64,000 bases of DNA from Desulfobaccales bacterium (GCA_037481655.1 JBBFLF010000006.1:62001-126000); one strand, 5' to 3'; numbered from the stretch's first letter, positions 32,283-39,422 are shown. The notes: generated by a model not told the origin, from the sequence alone. Program-made: numbers and translations.

Positions 32283-32405
32283 CAGCCGAGTTCCGCCGGT
32301 GAGGGCGGAAGCGGGGGACCCGAGCAGTAGGGGCGCATCGCCAAAGCGGCGTAGGACAACCTCATCGGTCCGAGCCCGTCAGCTAACCTCGTAGGCGTCG
32401 ATGGG
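32283..32405 (+). ncRNA. c-di-AMP riboswitch (ydaO/yuaA motif)
   Basis: The leader of the kup gene contains the conserved blocks of the ydaO class in order: CCGAGTTCCG...CGGAAGCGGGGGACCC at the 5' side, the internal GGGGCGCATC block, and the 3' block CCGAGCCCGTCAGCTAACC followed by TCGTAGGCGTC. The class binds cyclic di-AMP and usually turns off genes for potassium uptake or cell-wall enzymes. A Kup potassium transporter downstream is a classic target. The exact ends are estimated. Confidence 0.88.
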
Positions 32406-32425
32406 GAGAACCCTTCCGGGCCGTA

Positions 32426-32467
32426 GGTTCGGAGGCGTGTCCTCCCGAACCAACGGTGCGGAGGTTC
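32426..32467 (+). promoter_or_regulatory. Likely expression platform of the kup riboswitch
   Basis: GGTTCGGAGG (32426-32435) pairs with CCTCC-C-GAACC (32441-32451), a ten-pair stem with one bulge and a CGTGT loop. The same CCTCC and GAACC can pair instead with the ribosome site GGAGG and GGTTC at 32460-32467. Two exclusive structures around the Shine-Dalgarno point to control of translation. There is no T-run typical of a terminator. Confidence 0.5.
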
Positions 32468-32475
32468 TTTGTCGC

Positions 32476-34434
32476 ATGAGTACGTCTGCCTTGCGCAGCG
32501 GCACGGATGCATCAGCATCCGACTCCGAACAACGTCTGTCCCCTTCCCTGAACAACTCCTCCCCGGACTTTCGCCACCTTCTCTCCCTGGCCCTGGGGGC
32601 CCTGGGCGTGGTCTTTGGCGACATCGGCACCAGCCCCCTGTACGCCATCAAGGAATGTTTCCATGGCCTGCACGCCATTGAGATCACCCGGGGCAATATC
32701 CTGGGGGTCATGTCGCTGATCTTCTGGTCCCTGACCGTGGTGGTGACCATCAAATACGTCACCTTCATCCTCAGGGCGGACAACCAGGGCGAGGGCGGCA
32801 TCTACGCCCTGGCCGCCCTGTTTTTGGGGGGCGCCAGCCGCAAGGTCTCGGAGCGGACCGTGAAGCGCCTCACATACTTGGCTATCTTCGGCGCCGCGCT
32901 CCTGTACGGCGACGGCCTCATCACCCCGGTCATCTCCGTGCTCTCGGCCGTGGAAGGCCTCACGGTGGCCACTACCGCGGCGGAGCCCTTTATCCTGCCC
33001 CTCACCTGCGCCCTCCTCATCGGCCTGTTTGCCATTCAGCGCCAGGGCACCGCCCGCATCGGCCGGGTGTTCGGCCTGGTCATGCTCCTGTGGTTCCTGT
33101 CCCTGGCCGCCTTCGGCCTGGTGCAGGTCTTCCGGGTTCCCCTGGTGCTCACGGCCCTGGATCCCCGCCACGCCGTGGCCTTCTTTGCCGCCAACCGGCT
33201 CCATGGCCTGGTGGTCCTGGGGGCGGTGGTCCTGGTCATCACCGGCGGCGAAGCCCTGTACGCCGACCTGGGGCATTTCGGTCGGGGGCCCATCCGGTTT
33301 TCCTGGCTGGCCCTCGTCTTCCCCGCCCTCCTCCTCAATTATTTGGGGCAAGGCGCCCTGCTCCTGGAAAACCCCCAGGCTGCTTACAATCCCTTCTATG
33401 AGCTGGTGCCGCGGGTTCTGCTCTATCCCATGGTCCTCCTGGCCACCTCGGCCACCATCATCGCCTCCCAGGCCATGATTTCCGGGGTCTATTCCCTCAC
33501 CCAACAGGCCATCCAGATCGGCTACTGCCCCCGGTTGCACATCATTCACACCTCCGGGGAGGTCAAGGGCCAGATCTTTCTGCCCTGGGTGAATACCGTG
33601 ATGCTCCTCGGCTGCCTGGGACTGGCCTTGATGTTCAAGGAATCCAGCCGCCTGGCGGCCGCCTACGGCATCGCGGTGACCGGCACCATGGGGATCACCA
33701 CCATCCTCTACTACTACGTGGCCCGCTACCACTGGAATTGGCCCGGGTGGAAGGTGTTGCCCGTGGTGGGCGTGTTTTTCTCCTTTGACCTGGCCTATTT
33801 CAGCTCCAACCTGCTGAAGTTTGTGGACGGCGGCTGGTTCACCCTCTCAGTGGCGGCCCTTCTCACCCTGGTGATGGTCACCTGGCGGGACGGCCGGGCC
33901 ATTTTGGCCAAGCGGTTTGAGGAAGCCCGGATTCCCATCGAGGTGCTCCTCCGGGACATTGCCACCTACAAGCTGGTGCGCACCCCCGGCACCGCGGCCT
34001 TTCTGTCGGTATCCCCCACCGGCACGCCCGTGGCGCTGCTGCACCACCTGAAGCACAACGACGCCCTGCACGAGCGGGTCATCCTGCTGTCCATGGTTTC
34101 CACAGACACCCCTTATGTGCGGCCTCAGGAGCGCCTGGCCCTCACCGACCTGGGCTACGGCTTTTACCGCCTTGTGGCCTCTTACGGCTTCATGGAAACC
34201 CCCAGGGTTCCGGAGATCATCGCCTTGGCCAATGCCCAGGGACTGGACCTGGACATCTATTCCACCTCCTTCTATCTGGGGCGGGAGTCCCTCCTGCCCA
34301 CCGGCCCCGGCCGCATGGCCCGCTGGCGCAAGGCGCTGTTCATCTTTCTCTCCCGCAACGCCTGGAATGTCGCCACCTTTTTCGACATCCCCCCCAACCG
34401 GGTGGTGGAACTGGGCAGTCAGGTGGAGCTGTAG
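32476..34434 (+). CDS. kup: Kup-type potassium uptake transporter
   Basis: The protein is 652 aa from ATG 32476, with GGAGG 11 bases upstream; in-frame codons back to 32401 lie inside the riboswitch and are not the start. It has the Kup signature GALGVVFGDIGTSPLYAIKE, about twelve membrane helices, and a C-terminal soluble domain of about 190 residues (YVRPQERLALTDLGYGFYRL). It takes up K+ with protons across the inner membrane. The c-di-AMP leader indicates repression when potassium, and with it c-di-AMP, is high. Confidence 0.95.
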   Translation: MSTSALRSGTDASASDSEQRLSPSLNNSSPDFRHLLSLALGALGVVFGDIGTSPLYAIKECFHGLHAIEITRGNILGVMSLIFWSLTVVVTIKYVTFILRADNQGEGGIYALAALFLGGASRKVSERTVKRLTYLAIFGAALLYGDGLITPVISVLSAVEGLTVATTAAEPFILPLTCALLIGLFAIQRQGTARIGRVFGLVMLLWFLSLAAFGLVQVFRVPLVLTALDPRHAVAFFAANRLHGLVVLGAVVLVITGGEALYADLGHFGRGPIRFSWLALVFPALLLNYLGQGALLLENPQAAYNPFYELVPRVLLYPMVLLATSATIIASQAMISGVYSLTQQAIQIGYCPRLHIIHTSGEVKGQIFLPWVNTVMLLGCLGLALMFKESSRLAAAYGIAVTGTMGITTILYYYVARYHWNWPGWKVLPVVGVFFSFDLAYFSSNLLKFVDGGWFTLSVAALLTLVMVTWRDGRAILAKRFEEARIPIEVLLRDIATYKLVRTPGTAAFLSVSPTGTPVALLHHLKHNDALHERVILLSMVSTDTPYVRPQERLALTDLGYGFYRLVASYGFMETPRVPEIIALANAQGLDLDIYSTSFYLGRESLLPTGPGRMARWRKALFIFLSRNAWNVATFFDIPPNRVVELGSQVEL

Positions 34435-34620: not shown

Positions 34621-35598
34621 TCAGTCGGCCTTCTTCTTTTTGCCGGTCTCAAACATCTGGCTCTGCAGTTTTTCCAGGGCCCGGTCCAGATTGACCTTGG
34701 CCTCCTGGTAATGGGTGGGCCTCAGCTCCAGGGCCTTCTGGAAGCACTTGGCGGCCTCCTCGTATTTCCCGTCCAGATAAAAATGCACGCCCACGTTGTT
34801 GTAGGCCTGGGCTTCATCCCCGGCCTTGAGGAAGGCAGCGAAAGCCTCGTCATAACGCTGCTGGCCGGCCAGGGCCAGCCCCATAAGATGGTTGAGCTTC
34901 TTGTTGGCGGGGTCCATCTCCAGGCCCCGTTTCACCCAGCTCATGGCCTGGGTGTAGTTTTTCAGATCTAAGTACGCCTGCCCCAGGGCGGCGTAAGGCA
35001 TGGGGTTTTTGGGTTCCAGGCGGCTGGCCGCCTCCAGCTCGGTGATGGCCTCCCGGGGGCGCCCGGCGAGCAGGGTGGCCAAGCCCAAGAGATAGCGGGA
35101 TTTGGCCCGGGTAGGGTCCTGGGCCACCAGCTGGCGGAATTCCTGGATGGCCTCGGAGTTCTTTTTGTCCTGGAGATACGCCAGCCCCAGCCCTTCCCGG
35201 GCCTCCAGCATCTGGGGCTGGGCCGCCAGCACCCGGGCAAACTCCTGCCGGGCCGCCTCATACTGGCCGGTGAGGAGGAGCGCCACCCCCAGCTTATAGC
35301 GGATGTCATGGCGGTCAGGCTGCTCCGCCAGGACCTGGAGGTAGGTCACCAGGGAGCTGTCATACTCCCGCTTCTTCAGGAGCATGTCCCCTAGGGCCTC
35401 CTGTCGCATGGGGAGCATCCCTTTAATATCCTCGGAGGGGGGCTCCAATTTGCCGGGCCCGTAAATGCGCTGCAGTTTGGCGACTTCCGACTGCTTGAGG
35501 GCCCGCACCGGGGCATCCGGCTTTTTGCTGCAGGCCGTCAGCATCAGGGCCACACCTGCCAGAGCCACCGCCTGGGCCAGATATCTGCTGCTCATCAT
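34621..35598 (-). CDS. TPR-repeat lipoprotein
   Basis: The protein is 325 aa from ATG 35598; the adjacent ATG 35595 is better spaced from GGGGGAGGTGA. The N-terminus has a hydrophobic segment and lipobox LTAC, then SKKPD. From about residue 70 there are six to seven tetratricopeptide repeats (for example ALGDMLLKKREYDSSLVTYLQVLAEQP), ending in a Lys-rich tail. A membrane-anchored scaffold for protein contacts is expected. It lies 37 bases downstream of the degenerate NtrC-like gene's stop and is probably in the same transcript. Confidence 0.8.
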   Translation of the reverse strand: MMSSRYLAQAVALAGVALMLTACSKKPDAPVRALKQSEVAKLQRIYGPGKLEPPSEDIKGMLPMRQEALGDMLLKKREYDSSLVTYLQVLAEQPDRHDIRYKLGVALLLTGQYEAARQEFARVLAAQPQMLEAREGLGLAYLQDKKNSEAIQEFRQLVAQDPTRAKSRYLLGLATLLAGRPREAITELEAASRLEPKNPMPYAALGQAYLDLKNYTQAMSWVKRGLEMDPANKKLNHLMGLALAGQQRYDEAFAAFLKAGDEAQAYNNVGVHFYLDGKYEEAAKCFQKALELRPTHYQEAKVNLDRALEKLQSQMFETGKKKKAD

Positions 35599-35683: not shown

Positions 35684-37075
35684 TCAGGCCCGGAGACGGT
35701 ATTTTTTCAGCAGGGCATAGAGCCGGGGCAAAGAGAGGGCAGAGAGGCGGCAGGCCTCCTTGACGTTGTGCTGCGTCCGGGTCATCAGGGCCTCCATGTA
35801 GGCCTTTTCAGCCTGGGCCACGACCCGGCGCCGGTATTCCTTGAAGCTGACTTCCGCCGGAACCAGCTCCGCTGCCCCCGTCGGTTCCGGCTCGGGGAGA
35901 GGGCACCGGACCGGCCGCACTCCGGAGGGCAGATGCCAGGCCCGGAGCACCGGCTCGGCGCCCGCGGCTTTGAGAGCCTGGGTGAGCACCGCCACCAGCT
36001 CCGCCACATTCCCCGGCCAGGGGTAGGCCAAAAAAGCCTCCAGGACATCCGGCCCCAGGCCTTTAAAGTTGCCGGAGGGGCAGAGGCGCAGCAGGTGAAA
36101 GAAGGCCAGTTCGGGGATGTCCTCCCGTCGCTCCCGCAGGGGCGGCAGCCGAATGACCATATCGGCAAAGTGATCCCACAGATCCCGGAGGAAAAGCCCG
36201 TCCCGGACCAGGGGGGCCAGCTCCCGGGAACTGGCGGCCACCAGCCGGAAGCCCCTCCCCGGGCCAGCCTGGCGCCGGGACAGCAGCTCTGCCAGACTGT
36301 GCTGGAGCTGCGGGCTGAGAGCCTCCACCTCCCGGAGGAACAGGGTGCCCCCCTGGGCCTGGCGGCTGAGGGCCGGCCAGGGCGAGGCCGCAGGAGACGA
36401 GGCCTCCCCTTCCCTGCCGGCCAGAGAACCGGCGGAAACAGTCACGAAGGGGCCATGGCGGCCGGCGCGGTGGAGGTGCAGGGTGCGCGCAAAGAGACTC
36501 CGGCCGGTGCCGTCCTCCCCCAGTATCAGGACCGGCCTCTCCTGGCCGGCGGCCCGGGCCAGGGCTTCATAACAGGGCCGCATGGCGGCGCTCCGGCCCA
36601 CCACTTCCTCCAGAAGAAGAGGTAAATGCACCACCTCGGGAGAGCCGGCCTCCCGGAAGGCCAAGGCCCGGCCCAAAAGGGCGCGGGTCTCCGGGAGGGA
36701 GTCGGTGCGGCGGAGAATGCCTGCCACCCCCCCGTGGAAGGCAGGGCTGTCCGGAGCCGCCTCCCCGGCTCCAAGAATGAGGAAGACCCGGGGAGGCTGA
36801 GGCAGGCGCTGCACCTGGGGCAGGATCTCCAGGCCGCTGCCATCCGGCAGCCGCAGGTCCACCAGCACCAGATCCCAGGAGTCCTCTGCGGCCTTGGCCA
36901 CCCCTTGGGCCACACTGGCGGCCGTCTCCACCCGGTGCCCCATCTCCCTCAGCAGGTCCGCCAACATCTCCCGGAAGAGTTCATCATCCTCAATGAGCAG
37001 GACCCGGGCCTGACCGCCGCAGAAAGAAATTCCGGGCTCGGAAAGGGGAGCTTTCCTGATGGGGGCGTATGACAT
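35684..37075 (-). CDS. Degenerate NtrC-like response regulator (AAA+ site lost)
   Basis: The protein is 463 aa from ATG 37075, with AGGAGG nine bases upstream. The receiver domain looks usable: E29-D30-D31 and phospho-Asp D73. The AAA+ domain is eroded: Walker A is GEDGTGR with Arg192 in place of Lys, the GAFTGA sigma-54 loop is absent (about 215-240), and Walker B reads TLFLREV with Arg248 in place of Asp. LPPLRERREDIPEL and a C-terminal Fis-type helix (QHNVKEACRLSALSLPRLYALLKK) remain. It cannot be expected to hydrolyse ATP or activate sigma-54; it may bind DNA as a repressor or bind a partner. The preceding gene encodes an equally degenerate kinase. Confidence 0.8.
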   Translation of the reverse strand: MSYAPIRKAPLSEPGISFCGGQARVLLIEDDELFREMLADLLREMGHRVETAASVAQGVAKAAEDSWDLVLVDLRLPDGSGLEILPQVQRLPQPPRVFLILGAGEAAPDSPAFHGGVAGILRRTDSLPETRALLGRALAFREAGSPEVVHLPLLLEEVVGRSAAMRPCYEALARAAGQERPVLILGEDGTGRSLFARTLHLHRAGRHGPFVTVSAGSLAGREGEASSPAASPWPALSRQAQGGTLFLREVEALSPQLQHSLAELLSRRQAGPGRGFRLVAASSRELAPLVRDGLFLRDLWDHFADMVIRLPPLRERREDIPELAFFHLLRLCPSGNFKGLGPDVLEAFLAYPWPGNVAELVAVLTQALKAAGAEPVLRAWHLPSGVRPVRCPLPEPEPTGAAELVPAEVSFKEYRRRVVAQAEKAYMEALMTRTQHNVKEACRLSALSLPRLYALLKKYRLRA

Positions 37076-37101
37076 GGCCGACACCTCCTGGCCTCCCCCG
37101 C

Positions 37102-39261
37102 TTAAGAGGCCAAGCCCTTCGGTCCGGGAGGGGGGAAAATCCGGTCCAGGGCGGCAGTGAGTTCACTCAAGGACCATGGTTTCAGGGCGAAGTCCTGCAC
37201 CCCGGCGGTTTTGGCCTTCTCCAGGGTGACGAGATCCAAGGGGTCAAGACTGAGAATCACCGGCAGGCCGGGATGAAGGGTCCGCACTTCCCGGGCCAGG
37301 TCCAGACCGCTGATGGGGGCCAGGTCCTGATCCGCCAGCAGCAGATCAAAGTCCTGGGGCCGGGTCCGGAAAAGTTCCAGCGCCTCCTGGCCGTTGAGGG
37401 CCAGGTGGACCTCAAAGCCCAGACTGTGGAGGATCTCCCGCCAGAGAGCCCCTTGGCTCTCGTCTCCGGCGGCCAGGAGGATCCGCCCCCGGGCCTGACG
37501 GCGGCGCGCCGGCGCTTCCGGCCCCTCTCCGGCCTCCTCGGGCTGAGACCGCCGCTCCCAGGGCCGGCTGAAGGCCAGAATCTGCTGCACCAGGTCCCGC
37601 CCCCGGCGGCCGGCCTTCAGAACCTGAGCCAGTTTGGCCCTGGCCGGGTCCTCCTCCGGCAGGGCGGCCTGGGCCATCTCCGCATACCCCAGCATCACCG
37701 CCAGGATCTGGTCGAAGTCCCGGGCCAGGGAGCCGGCCAGACTTCCCAGGGCCTCCAGGCGCTCCCGTCGCCGGCGCGCCGCGTCCTCCCCGGCGCCCCT
37801 CAGGACTGGCATGGGTCCGGGGCCGCCGCTGACCTCCGTTTCAGGGGCAACCTCCAGGGGGACTGGACCTTCCAGGAGACGTCTGATCACCATGATGCCG
37901 CCGTCAGCTTCCCCCTTGGCATCCCGCAGGGGGGTCAGAAAGGCGTCATAACAGGCCGCCGTCCCCCCGGGGACAAGCTGCACCGGCTGCTTGGGATCGA
38001 GAAGCCGCCTGGCCTCCCTGATCTCCCGGAGTTTCTCCCCTGCCGTCAGTCCCGGCAGCACCCGGCTCACTTCCTGGCCGTACACCTCCTGCCGGGTCAG
38101 GCCGGTGATGGATTCCATGGCCCGGTTCCAGTGAGTCAGCCGGCCCTCCCGGGTGAAGGCCGCCACCCCCGCCTCACAGGCCGCCAGGGCAGTATCGGCC
38201 ACCTGGCGCTCCCGGGTAAGTTCCCGGTTCAGGTCCTCCTGTTCCGCCTGGGAGAGGAGGGAAGCCCCCAGATACTGCTCCTTCAGGAGACGATGAGACC
38301 GTTGGAGCCTGGCCAGCTCCTCCTCCAGCTCCCGGAGGCGGCTTATGTCCACGGCCACCCCGGTGAAGCCTTCCCGGGCCTCATCCCACTTACCCCACAG
38401 GCGCAACGTGGCCACCTTCCCGTCCCGGCGCAGGAAGGGGACCTCCACGCCCACCACCCGTCCCTGAGCCGCCTGGGCCAGGAGGCGTTCCCAGGCCGCC
38501 GGCTCCGCCACCCGGTCTTGCGGCACAAATTCTTCAAGCAGGCTGTCGGCCTCCGGCCAACCCAACATACGGGCCAGGGCGTCATTGGCGGCCACGAGAC
38601 TGAAGCCGGGTAAGCGGGCCTGAAATCTCCCCACGCCGGCTTCCTCCTCCCATAAAACCCCTGGGGCTGCGGCGACCGTCCCCCGGCCCTGGGCTGCTCC
38701 CTCCCGCAGTCGGCGGCATTCCTCCCCGTGCCGCCGGATTACGAGTCCCGCGGCGGCAACGCCGGCCAGAAGCTCCGCCAGATCTTTCTGGGCGCTGAGC
38801 CGGCGCCCTTCGGGGCCCAAGACCGCCAGGACTCCCATGGTCTTTCCGGCCACTCGCAGCGGCACGGCCAGACAGGCGGCCAGATGCGCCTCCCGGAGCG
38901 CCGCCGCCCAGGGAAGGGGCCCAAAATCTTCTGCCACCAGATCGCCCCACACCGCCACCCCGGTCTGGTAAGCCTGGCTGAAAGGATGCTGCTCCGGAGC
39001 ACCCAGGAGAGTGAAGGAAGCAGCGATGAACACCGGGGGGAGGGAGCCGGCCCAGGCCACGGGCTTGAGCCTCTCGTCCTGGGGCAGAAGAATCACCGCG
39101 GCAGCCCCGCCCACGGCTTCCACCGCCAGGTGGCAGACTTCCCGGAGAAAGGGGCCTTCTTCCATCTCGCCGGCCAGGAGCTCCAAAGCCCGGCGGAGTG
39201 ACCGGGGCACTGAAGCCGGCGAGGAAAGCCCCGTTTCCTTGTCTGGGATGTCAACCGTCAT
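37102..39261 (-). CDS. Histidine-kinase-like protein without phospho-His or ATPase domain
   Basis: The protein is 719 aa. In order: GAF-like domain (about 25-180), a PAS domain (about 215-320), a coiled stretch, a second PAS (about 355-450), an HisKA-like segment, and a receiver-like domain (about 590-710). The H-box reads LGSLAGSLARDFDQIL, with Arg514 where IAHDFNNIL kinases have His. No HATPase_c domain follows. The receiver keeps an Asp (LLLADQDLAP) and Lys (FALKPW) but its N-terminal acidic pair is AGDE. It may sense a ligand and signal by protein contact. Its stop lies 26 bases before the start of the NtrC-like gene. Confidence 0.8.
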   Translation of the reverse strand: MTVDIPDKETGLSSPASVPRSLRRALELLAGEMEEGPFLREVCHLAVEAVGGAAAVILLPQDERLKPVAWAGSLPPVFIAASFTLLGAPEQHPFSQAYQTGVAVWGDLVAEDFGPLPWAAALREAHLAACLAVPLRVAGKTMGVLAVLGPEGRRLSAQKDLAELLAGVAAAGLVIRRHGEECRRLREGAAQGRGTVAAAPGVLWEEEAGVGRFQARLPGFSLVAANDALARMLGWPEADSLLEEFVPQDRVAEPAAWERLLAQAAQGRVVGVEVPFLRRDGKVATLRLWGKWDEAREGFTGVAVDISRLRELEEELARLQRSHRLLKEQYLGASLLSQAEQEDLNRELTRERQVADTALAACEAGVAAFTREGRLTHWNRAMESITGLTRQEVYGQEVSRVLPGLTAGEKLREIREARRLLDPKQPVQLVPGGTAACYDAFLTPLRDAKGEADGGIMVIRRLLEGPVPLEVAPETEVSGGPGPMPVLRGAGEDAARRRRERLEALGSLAGSLARDFDQILAVMLGYAEMAQAALPEEDPARAKLAQVLKAGRRGRDLVQQILAFSRPWERRSQPEEAGEGPEAPARRRQARGRILLAAGDESQGALWREILHSLGFEVHLALNGQEALELFRTRPQDFDLLLADQDLAPISGLDLAREVRTLHPGLPVILSLDPLDLVTLEKAKTAGVQDFALKPWSLSELTAALDRIFPPPGPKGLAS

Positions 39262-39405
39262 TGCCGTGGCTCACCTAAATCATCCATAGCCTGCCGCAGA
39301 AAATGTAAGGGGAGAAGTATTACATTCTCACATAGCAAAAAAATTCTCTTTTTTAAAGAAAAAAGGGGCAAATAAAGTAGAGGGCCAGATCAGGGAGGGC
39401 TTCTA

Positions 39406-39422
39406 TTCTTATCGAATAAGAA
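39406..39422. promoter_or_regulatory. AT-rich inverted repeat upstream of the kinase-like gene
   Basis: TTCTTAT (39406-39412), CGA, ATAAGAA (39416-39422) is a perfect seven-base inverted repeat in the 248-bp gap between UPF0280 and the kinase-like gene. The gap is AT-rich compared with its surroundings. The repeat could be an operator or a weak terminator of UPF0280. Confidence 0.35.

Follow-up and report, generated by a model that had tools for sequence, protein, structure and literature searches.

Linked pseudo-histidine kinase and NtrC-like pseudo-activator genes in a Desulfobaccales genus: a candidate repurposed two-component pair

A 64,000-nucleotide stretch of a Desulfobaccales bacterium genome (GCA_037481655.1 JBBFLF010000006.1:62001-126000; G000:C6:62001-126000 in our set, within a 2.87-Mb genome), hereafter the window, encodes on its minus strand a histidine kinase-like protein (37102–39261) and, directly downstream, an NtrC-like regulator (35684–37084), both of which lack catalytic residues. 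The best explanation for this arrangement, to which we give a probability of about 0.5, is a repurposed and catalytically dead two-component pair, in which contact between the proteins would relay GAF/PAS sensing to a Fis-type DNA-binding protein that would act at sigma-70-type promoters. Sequence comparisons establish common descent, concerted catalytic loss, conserved linkage, purifying selection on the docking and DNA-binding parts, and loss of a sigma-54 promoter; from these we infer the contact-based mechanism. The retained parts are a GAF/PAS sensor, a two-helix DHp docking module, one receiver-shaped domain per protein, an AAA lid, and a nearly unchanged Fis-type helix-turn-helix (HTH).

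Catalytic losses in the two proteins

The kinase-like gene comes first and encodes 719 residues (GAF-PAS-PAS-DHp remnant-receiver (REC), no HATPase), and the regulator gene (REC-AAA-HTH) encodes 466 residues from a GTG start or 463 from an ATG at 37075. Both assignments rest on open reading frames (ORFs), Pfam matches, and orthologues in two further species. The ORFs are unbroken, as the initial annotation had stated; the 26-base gap it gave between the genes applies to the ATG start, and the GTG start leaves 17 bases.

Pfam detects GAF, PAS, and Response_reg domains in the kinase-like protein and a sub-threshold HisKA (22.0 bits, cut-off 26.9). HATPase_c has no Pfam match here or in the orthologous locus L061, and is present in the intact homologues of sister-genus loci L063 and L064. 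The GAF domain (38728–39171; Pfam GAF_2, 2.4e-12) is confident in the AlphaFold model, a first PAS-like domain (38332–38646) aligns with the PAS region of the intact kinase and has PAS-like fold elements in the model, and a second PAS domain (37876–38205) is matched by Pfam PAS at 1.6e-12. The DHp (HisKA) remnant (37564–37794), identified by alignment to HDFNN homologues, is modeled as a two-helix hairpin (H490–533/H539–565); in it Arg514 (codon 37720–37722) occupies the phospho-His position in all three species of the genus, reading ‘LARDFDQI’ here versus ‘IAHDFNNI’ in intact relatives, so that H is replaced by R514 and the two N residues by D517 and Q518. In the alignment, a short linker (37495–37563) replaces the HATPase_c domain of intact homologues (approximately 165 residues), and a PAS-containing stretch of approximately 270 residues is also missing. 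The C-terminal pseudo-receiver (37132–37494) retains its Asp and Lys, and has lost the metal-binding acid pair (DD to AG) and the Thr (to Leu). The AlphaFold model as a whole (mean predicted local distance difference test score (pLDDT) 70) comprises the GAF domain, two PAS-like domains, the DHp hairpin, and REC. The protein therefore has neither the phosphorylatable His nor the HATPase_c of a HisKA kinase, and matches a pseudo-histidine kinase, with the catalytic features gone and the sensor and DHp retained. Alignment and Pfam thus agree with the initial annotation, which had noted that Arg514 replaces the phospho-His and that the ATPase domain is missing.

In the regulator, Pfam finds Response_reg, a weak sigma-54 AAA domain (65–66 bits), and the AAA lid. 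The pseudo-receiver (36644–37012) retains the phosphoacceptor Asp76 (GTG numbering; D73 from the ATG) in all three species, in all of which the Thr is replaced by Leu or Ala and the switch Lys by Arg. By alignment, the Walker A motif (36497–36520) is degenerate, reading GEDGTGRS with Arg for Lys; the GAFTGA motif has been deleted with the L1 loop (deletion site 36380–36424); and Arg251 (codon 36332–36334) stands at the Walker B Asp position (LFLRE). The alignment bears out what the initial annotation had recorded for these three motifs, and the losses extend further, with Leu at one Arg finger and His or Glu at the other, Ser for the sensor I Asn, and Ala for the sensor II Arg. The Fis-type HTH (35687–35836) scores 19.5 bits against HTH_8, under the cut-off of 22; its recognition segment, SALSxPRLYALLKK, is common to the genus and the intact homologues of L063 and L064, and on this shared segment we counted it as the HTH of a bacterial enhancer-binding protein (bEBP). 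Of the other features of a sigma-54 bEBP, the regulator lacks GAFTGA, the Walker A Lys, the Walker B Asp, the Arg fingers, and sensor II. It shares the GAFTGA loss with the NtrC-like proteins that work at sigma-70 promoters, and lacks an ATP site like that of Rhodobacter capsulatus NtrC. By alignment, neither receiver of the pair has all five residues that define a catalytic receiver (PMC12632262).

An N-terminal extension of the regulator (37013–37084) is seen by alignment in this genus only; its 24 residues (SAMSYAPIRKxxLxEPGIS) are conserved in the genus and lacking in intact homologues.

Descent and selection

The two other species sampled from the genus (G001 and G002, alongside G000) carry the pair in conserved synteny, at 69%–72% identity for the kinase and 74%–77% for the regulator. 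The main catalytic losses are shared by all three species, which excludes assembly error and places them before the species split. Motif losses in homologues were read from an alignment of 127 sequences, in which the Walker A Lys or the Walker B Asp is missing from only five: the three from this genus and two more. The genome of the window encodes 18 other strong sigma-54 activator domains, scoring 201–258 bits versus 66 for the regulator. The losses are not chance, because so few homologues are affected and the AAA score is far below those of the 18 other activators. Since these normal activators are retained, and a sigma-54 factor is encoded in all three species, the losses are specific to the pair and do not reflect a genome-wide loss of sigma-54 control.

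Intact adjacent hybrid kinase/regulator pairs occur in sister genera (G003, G005, G008, G013, G016, and G021) and carry HDFNN, HATPase_c, a full REC, GxTGTGK, GAFTGA, DE, the Arg fingers, and sensor II. The G003 pair lies at the same locus (ksgA-EamA-UPF0280-HK-RR), and in the regulator tree the genus groups with G003 and G005 (support 100/99). These linked intact pairs, the shared locus, and the tree together indicate that the pair’s ancestor was a functional sigma-54 two-component system. Among the matches listed in the genome-contig scan there were no further members of the degenerate clade, only homologues of ≤36% identity. A first tree had placed the genus on a very long stem; the ratio of the distance to G003 over the within-genus distance (3.9–4.2) falls inside the range for neighboring genes (3.4–9.0), and the idea of an evolutionary burst on the stem was dropped.

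Selection was estimated with pairwise codon models across the three species, with likelihood ratios (LRs) taken against omega = 1. Omega is 0.23–0.27 for the kinase and 0.17–0.22 for the regulator (LR 102–171), at an unsaturated synonymous divergence (dS) of 0.63–1.01. Because all three species share the losses, these values measure selection after catalysis was lost. For comparison, omega is 0.04–0.07 for two intact NtrC-like genes in these genomes and 0.03–0.15 for neighboring genes. By domain (a composite likelihood over three non-independent pairs, which makes the LR values approximate), omega is lowest for the AAA lid (0.10), the HTH (0.11), the DHp remnant (0.14), and the kinase REC (0.16), intermediate for the N-terminal extension (0.18), the regulator REC (0.19), PAS1 (0.20), and the AAA core (0.22), and highest for GAF (0.28), PAS2 (0.33), and the linkers (0.30–0.63). 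Invariant residues make up 86% of the HTH and 83% of the DHp remnant. This pattern fits a folded and used protein pair freed of catalytic constraint, and continued function of the pair is well supported by these sequence comparisons.

The check proposed in the initial annotation, a comparison of homologous pairs, thus found the same residues missing and purifying selection acting in all three genus pairs. Its view that the proteins are co-evolved pseudoenzymes rather than decaying genes stands in part: the shared losses and the omega and LR values speak for it, but what the three species document is concerted loss in the pair, not residue covariation, and selection is weaker than on intact genes. 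Intact nearest relatives and relaxed selection had been named as evidence to the contrary; the nearest relatives outside the genus are indeed catalytically intact, but purifying selection persists, though weaker than on intact NtrC-like genes.

Control region and neighboring genes

The intact operons of L063 and L064 have a strong sigma-54 −24/−12 site 60–80 bases ahead of the kinase start (TGGCATTTCTTTTGCTA in L063 and TGGCATTTGTCTTGCTA in L064), which suggests that intact relatives autoregulate their kinase operons. These promoters (L063:10427 and L064:10519, both on the minus strand) immediately precede the hybrid kinase operons. No sigma-54 −24/−12 site is present upstream of the three degenerate operons. 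Comparison of the three species instead reveals a conserved 35-nt element, TTCTTTAAAAAAGAGAATTTTTTTGCTATGTGAGA (39326–39360, minus strand), a candidate promoter or operator whose 3′ 22 bases are invariant amid poorly aligning intergenic DNA and whose 20-base core occurs once per genome. Across 1.74 Mb of other loci, the best ungapped match to the element (25/35) sits upstream of the intact G003 kinase, and the element was therefore probably inherited. By inspection, it is possible to read it as an extended −10 promoter (TTTGCTAT) with A/T tracts.

A perfect dyad, TTCTTATTCGATAAGAA (39406–39422), is a second candidate operator; it is compensated in G002 (TTCTTGTTCCACAAGAA), and no counterpart is seen in G001. 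Genome-wide near-matches to the dyad are hardly above a reversed-pattern control, and we propose no regulon for it. A/T-tract dyads shared among the upstream regions stand above block-shuffle expectation, but A-tracts alone could account for this; they were likewise set aside.

Approximately 85 bases past the regulator, on the same strand, lies a TPR-repeat lipoprotein gene (34621–35598, minus strand) that is syntenic in all three species and may be part of the operon or a target. A KUP-type potassium transporter gene (32401–34434, plus strand) sits between it and a NifS-like gene in the window; the two other species of the genus have nothing matching the transporter gene in the corresponding syntenic region (L061 and L062). 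In G003 and G005, the intact regulator is followed by a same-strand Tad/Flp pilus cluster (L063:251–2099; L064:224–3941), which in L064 includes a prepilin peptidase, TadE, CpaB, and a secretin, and a Tad pilus may formerly have been under the control of the pair. In the degenerate genus, Tad loci lie elsewhere. Decay through loss of this adjoining target was considered and dropped: a close CpaB homologue is present in two of the three genus members, and some CpaB in all three. In a separate lineage, a gammaproteobacterial metagenome-assembled genome encodes an NtrX-like regulator (L143:13985–15343, minus strand) that independently lacks the Walker A Lys (GEGGSGR), GAFTGA, and Walker B, and adjoins an NtrY-like kinase of intact appearance.

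Proposed mechanism, alternatives, and known systems

We propose that the GAF/PAS region senses a signal and alters binding of the sensor’s DHp/REC part to the regulator receiver, and that this contact, rather than phosphate or ATP, would set the dimer state of the regulator or its DNA occupancy. Bound via its Fis-type HTH, the regulator would then repress or co-activate sigma-70-type promoters, probably among them the conserved element that precedes its own operon. That the linked pseudo-kinase and pseudo-activator form a complete path from sensor to DNA through DHp/REC contact, with neither phosphotransfer nor ATPase chemistry, is a more tentative proposal, which we hold to be somewhat improbable in this full form. 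Several observations weigh against a repurposed pair. Selection on it is 3–5 times weaker than on intact NtrC-like genes, which keeps some room for slow decay, and the sample comprises only three species. A consensus promoter scan calls no promoter in TTCTTTAAAAAAGAGAATTTTTTTGCTATGTGAGA, the sigma-70 reading of which comes from inspection only. The regulator receiver of G001 has lost one further acid (D to P), and AlphaFold models the regulator poorly (mean pLDDT 50, from a five-sequence alignment), with an uninterpretable AAA core.

The two alternatives that carry some weight, though each is unlikely, are gradual decay and a separation of the two partners. If the signal or target had disappeared, the genes could be decaying slowly, with the residual constraint a leftover or a matter of folding and of avoiding harmful products; the elevated omega (3–5 times that of intact NtrC-like genes and approximately twice that of neighboring genes), the disappearance of catalytic residues across both proteins, and that of the sigma-54 promoter would all be expected. 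The losses, however, predate a split at dS of approximately 0.6–1, and yet all six reading frames are intact with omega far below 1, the HTH and AAA lid are constrained like ordinary neighboring genes, and the core of the upstream element is exactly retained. Comparably improbable is that the regulator is an orphan DNA-binding repressor while the sensor separately modulates another intact kinase or regulator, in the manner of pseudo-histidine kinases like DivL, whose targets are other signaling proteins (PMC4211667). Characterized atypical response regulators are mostly orphans (PMC12632262), and retention of the REC and DHp parts is compatible with such a role, but the two genes are adjacent in all three species and have degenerated together.

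Two further possibilities are far less probable. The regulator might mix into hexamers of intact NtrC-like activators as a dominant-negative partner and damp sigma-54 transcription, in a genome that encodes 18 such activators and one sigma-54 factor, and its AAA lid and core are still recognizable; the Arg fingers, sensor residues, and L1 loop have nevertheless all been lost, and the HTH, which is among the best-kept parts, points to DNA sites of its own. The other, a form of which the initial annotation had raised as phosphotransfer from another kinase to D73, would have Asp76 phosphorylated and the regulator working as a GAFTGA-less sigma-70 activator like R. capsulatus NtrC. Retention of Asp76 in all three species is in its favor. 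Loss of the receiver Thr and Lys in the same three species, and of one acid in G001, makes phosphotransfer to Asp76 unlikely as a working switch and weakens that earlier suggestion; moreover, R. capsulatus NtrC requires ATP binding (PMC10274813), but both Walker motifs are substituted here.

NtrC-like proteins that lack GAFTGA and function at sigma-70 promoters have been described (PMC3162934, PMC10274813), and the regulator resembles R. capsulatus and Caulobacter NtrC, HupR, TyrR, and VpsR in having an NtrC-family AAA domain in which GAFTGA is deleted or altered and sigma-54 contact is lost. R. capsulatus and Caulobacter NtrC, however, rely on ATP-site residues and on a phospho-Asp with a working kinase, whereas the present regulator has lost Walker A and B, the Arg fingers, sensor II, and the receiver switch, and is linked to a kinase that is itself dead. 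In its way of working, the regulator would be nearest to VpsR, which reportedly needs neither ATP nor phosphorylation. The kinase-like protein resembles DivL and the Corynebacterium glutamicum ChrS pseudokinase variant in combining sensor domains with a DHp that lacks the phospho-His, a position occupied by Tyr in DivL (PMC4211667). DivL retains an ATPase-fold domain and acts on another kinase, whereas the protein described here has lost the ATPase domain by deletion, and its linked regulator is dead too.

The His is missing from 0.9% of HisKA domains and the Asp from 2.0% of receivers (PMC12632262). Compared with the atypical response regulators FleQ, HP1043, GlnR, and CmrT, the regulator described here is paired with a pseudo-kinase that bears its own pseudo-receiver. 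A 2025 review, in which two of the 20 atypical regulators discussed are non-orphans, describes how such regulators are switched as a mystery (PMC12632262). A linked pair with catalysis lost in both partners was not found by full-text searches of an open-access library, a result that leaves its absence from the literature unproven. Unlike nearly all characterized atypical regulators, this one has a likely partner known through gene linkage, and with a catalytic relative at the same locus, an unchanged HTH recognition segment, and a candidate DNA site, phosphate-free switching becomes directly testable in a linked pair. The intact sister-genus pairs (L063, L064, L065–L069, and L073) share its domain types and either its locus (L063) or its gene order, but possess all catalytic residues and, in L063 and L064, an upstream sigma-54 promoter. 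They provide a ready control for what would be a case study of an entire two-component system becoming a pseudoenzyme system.

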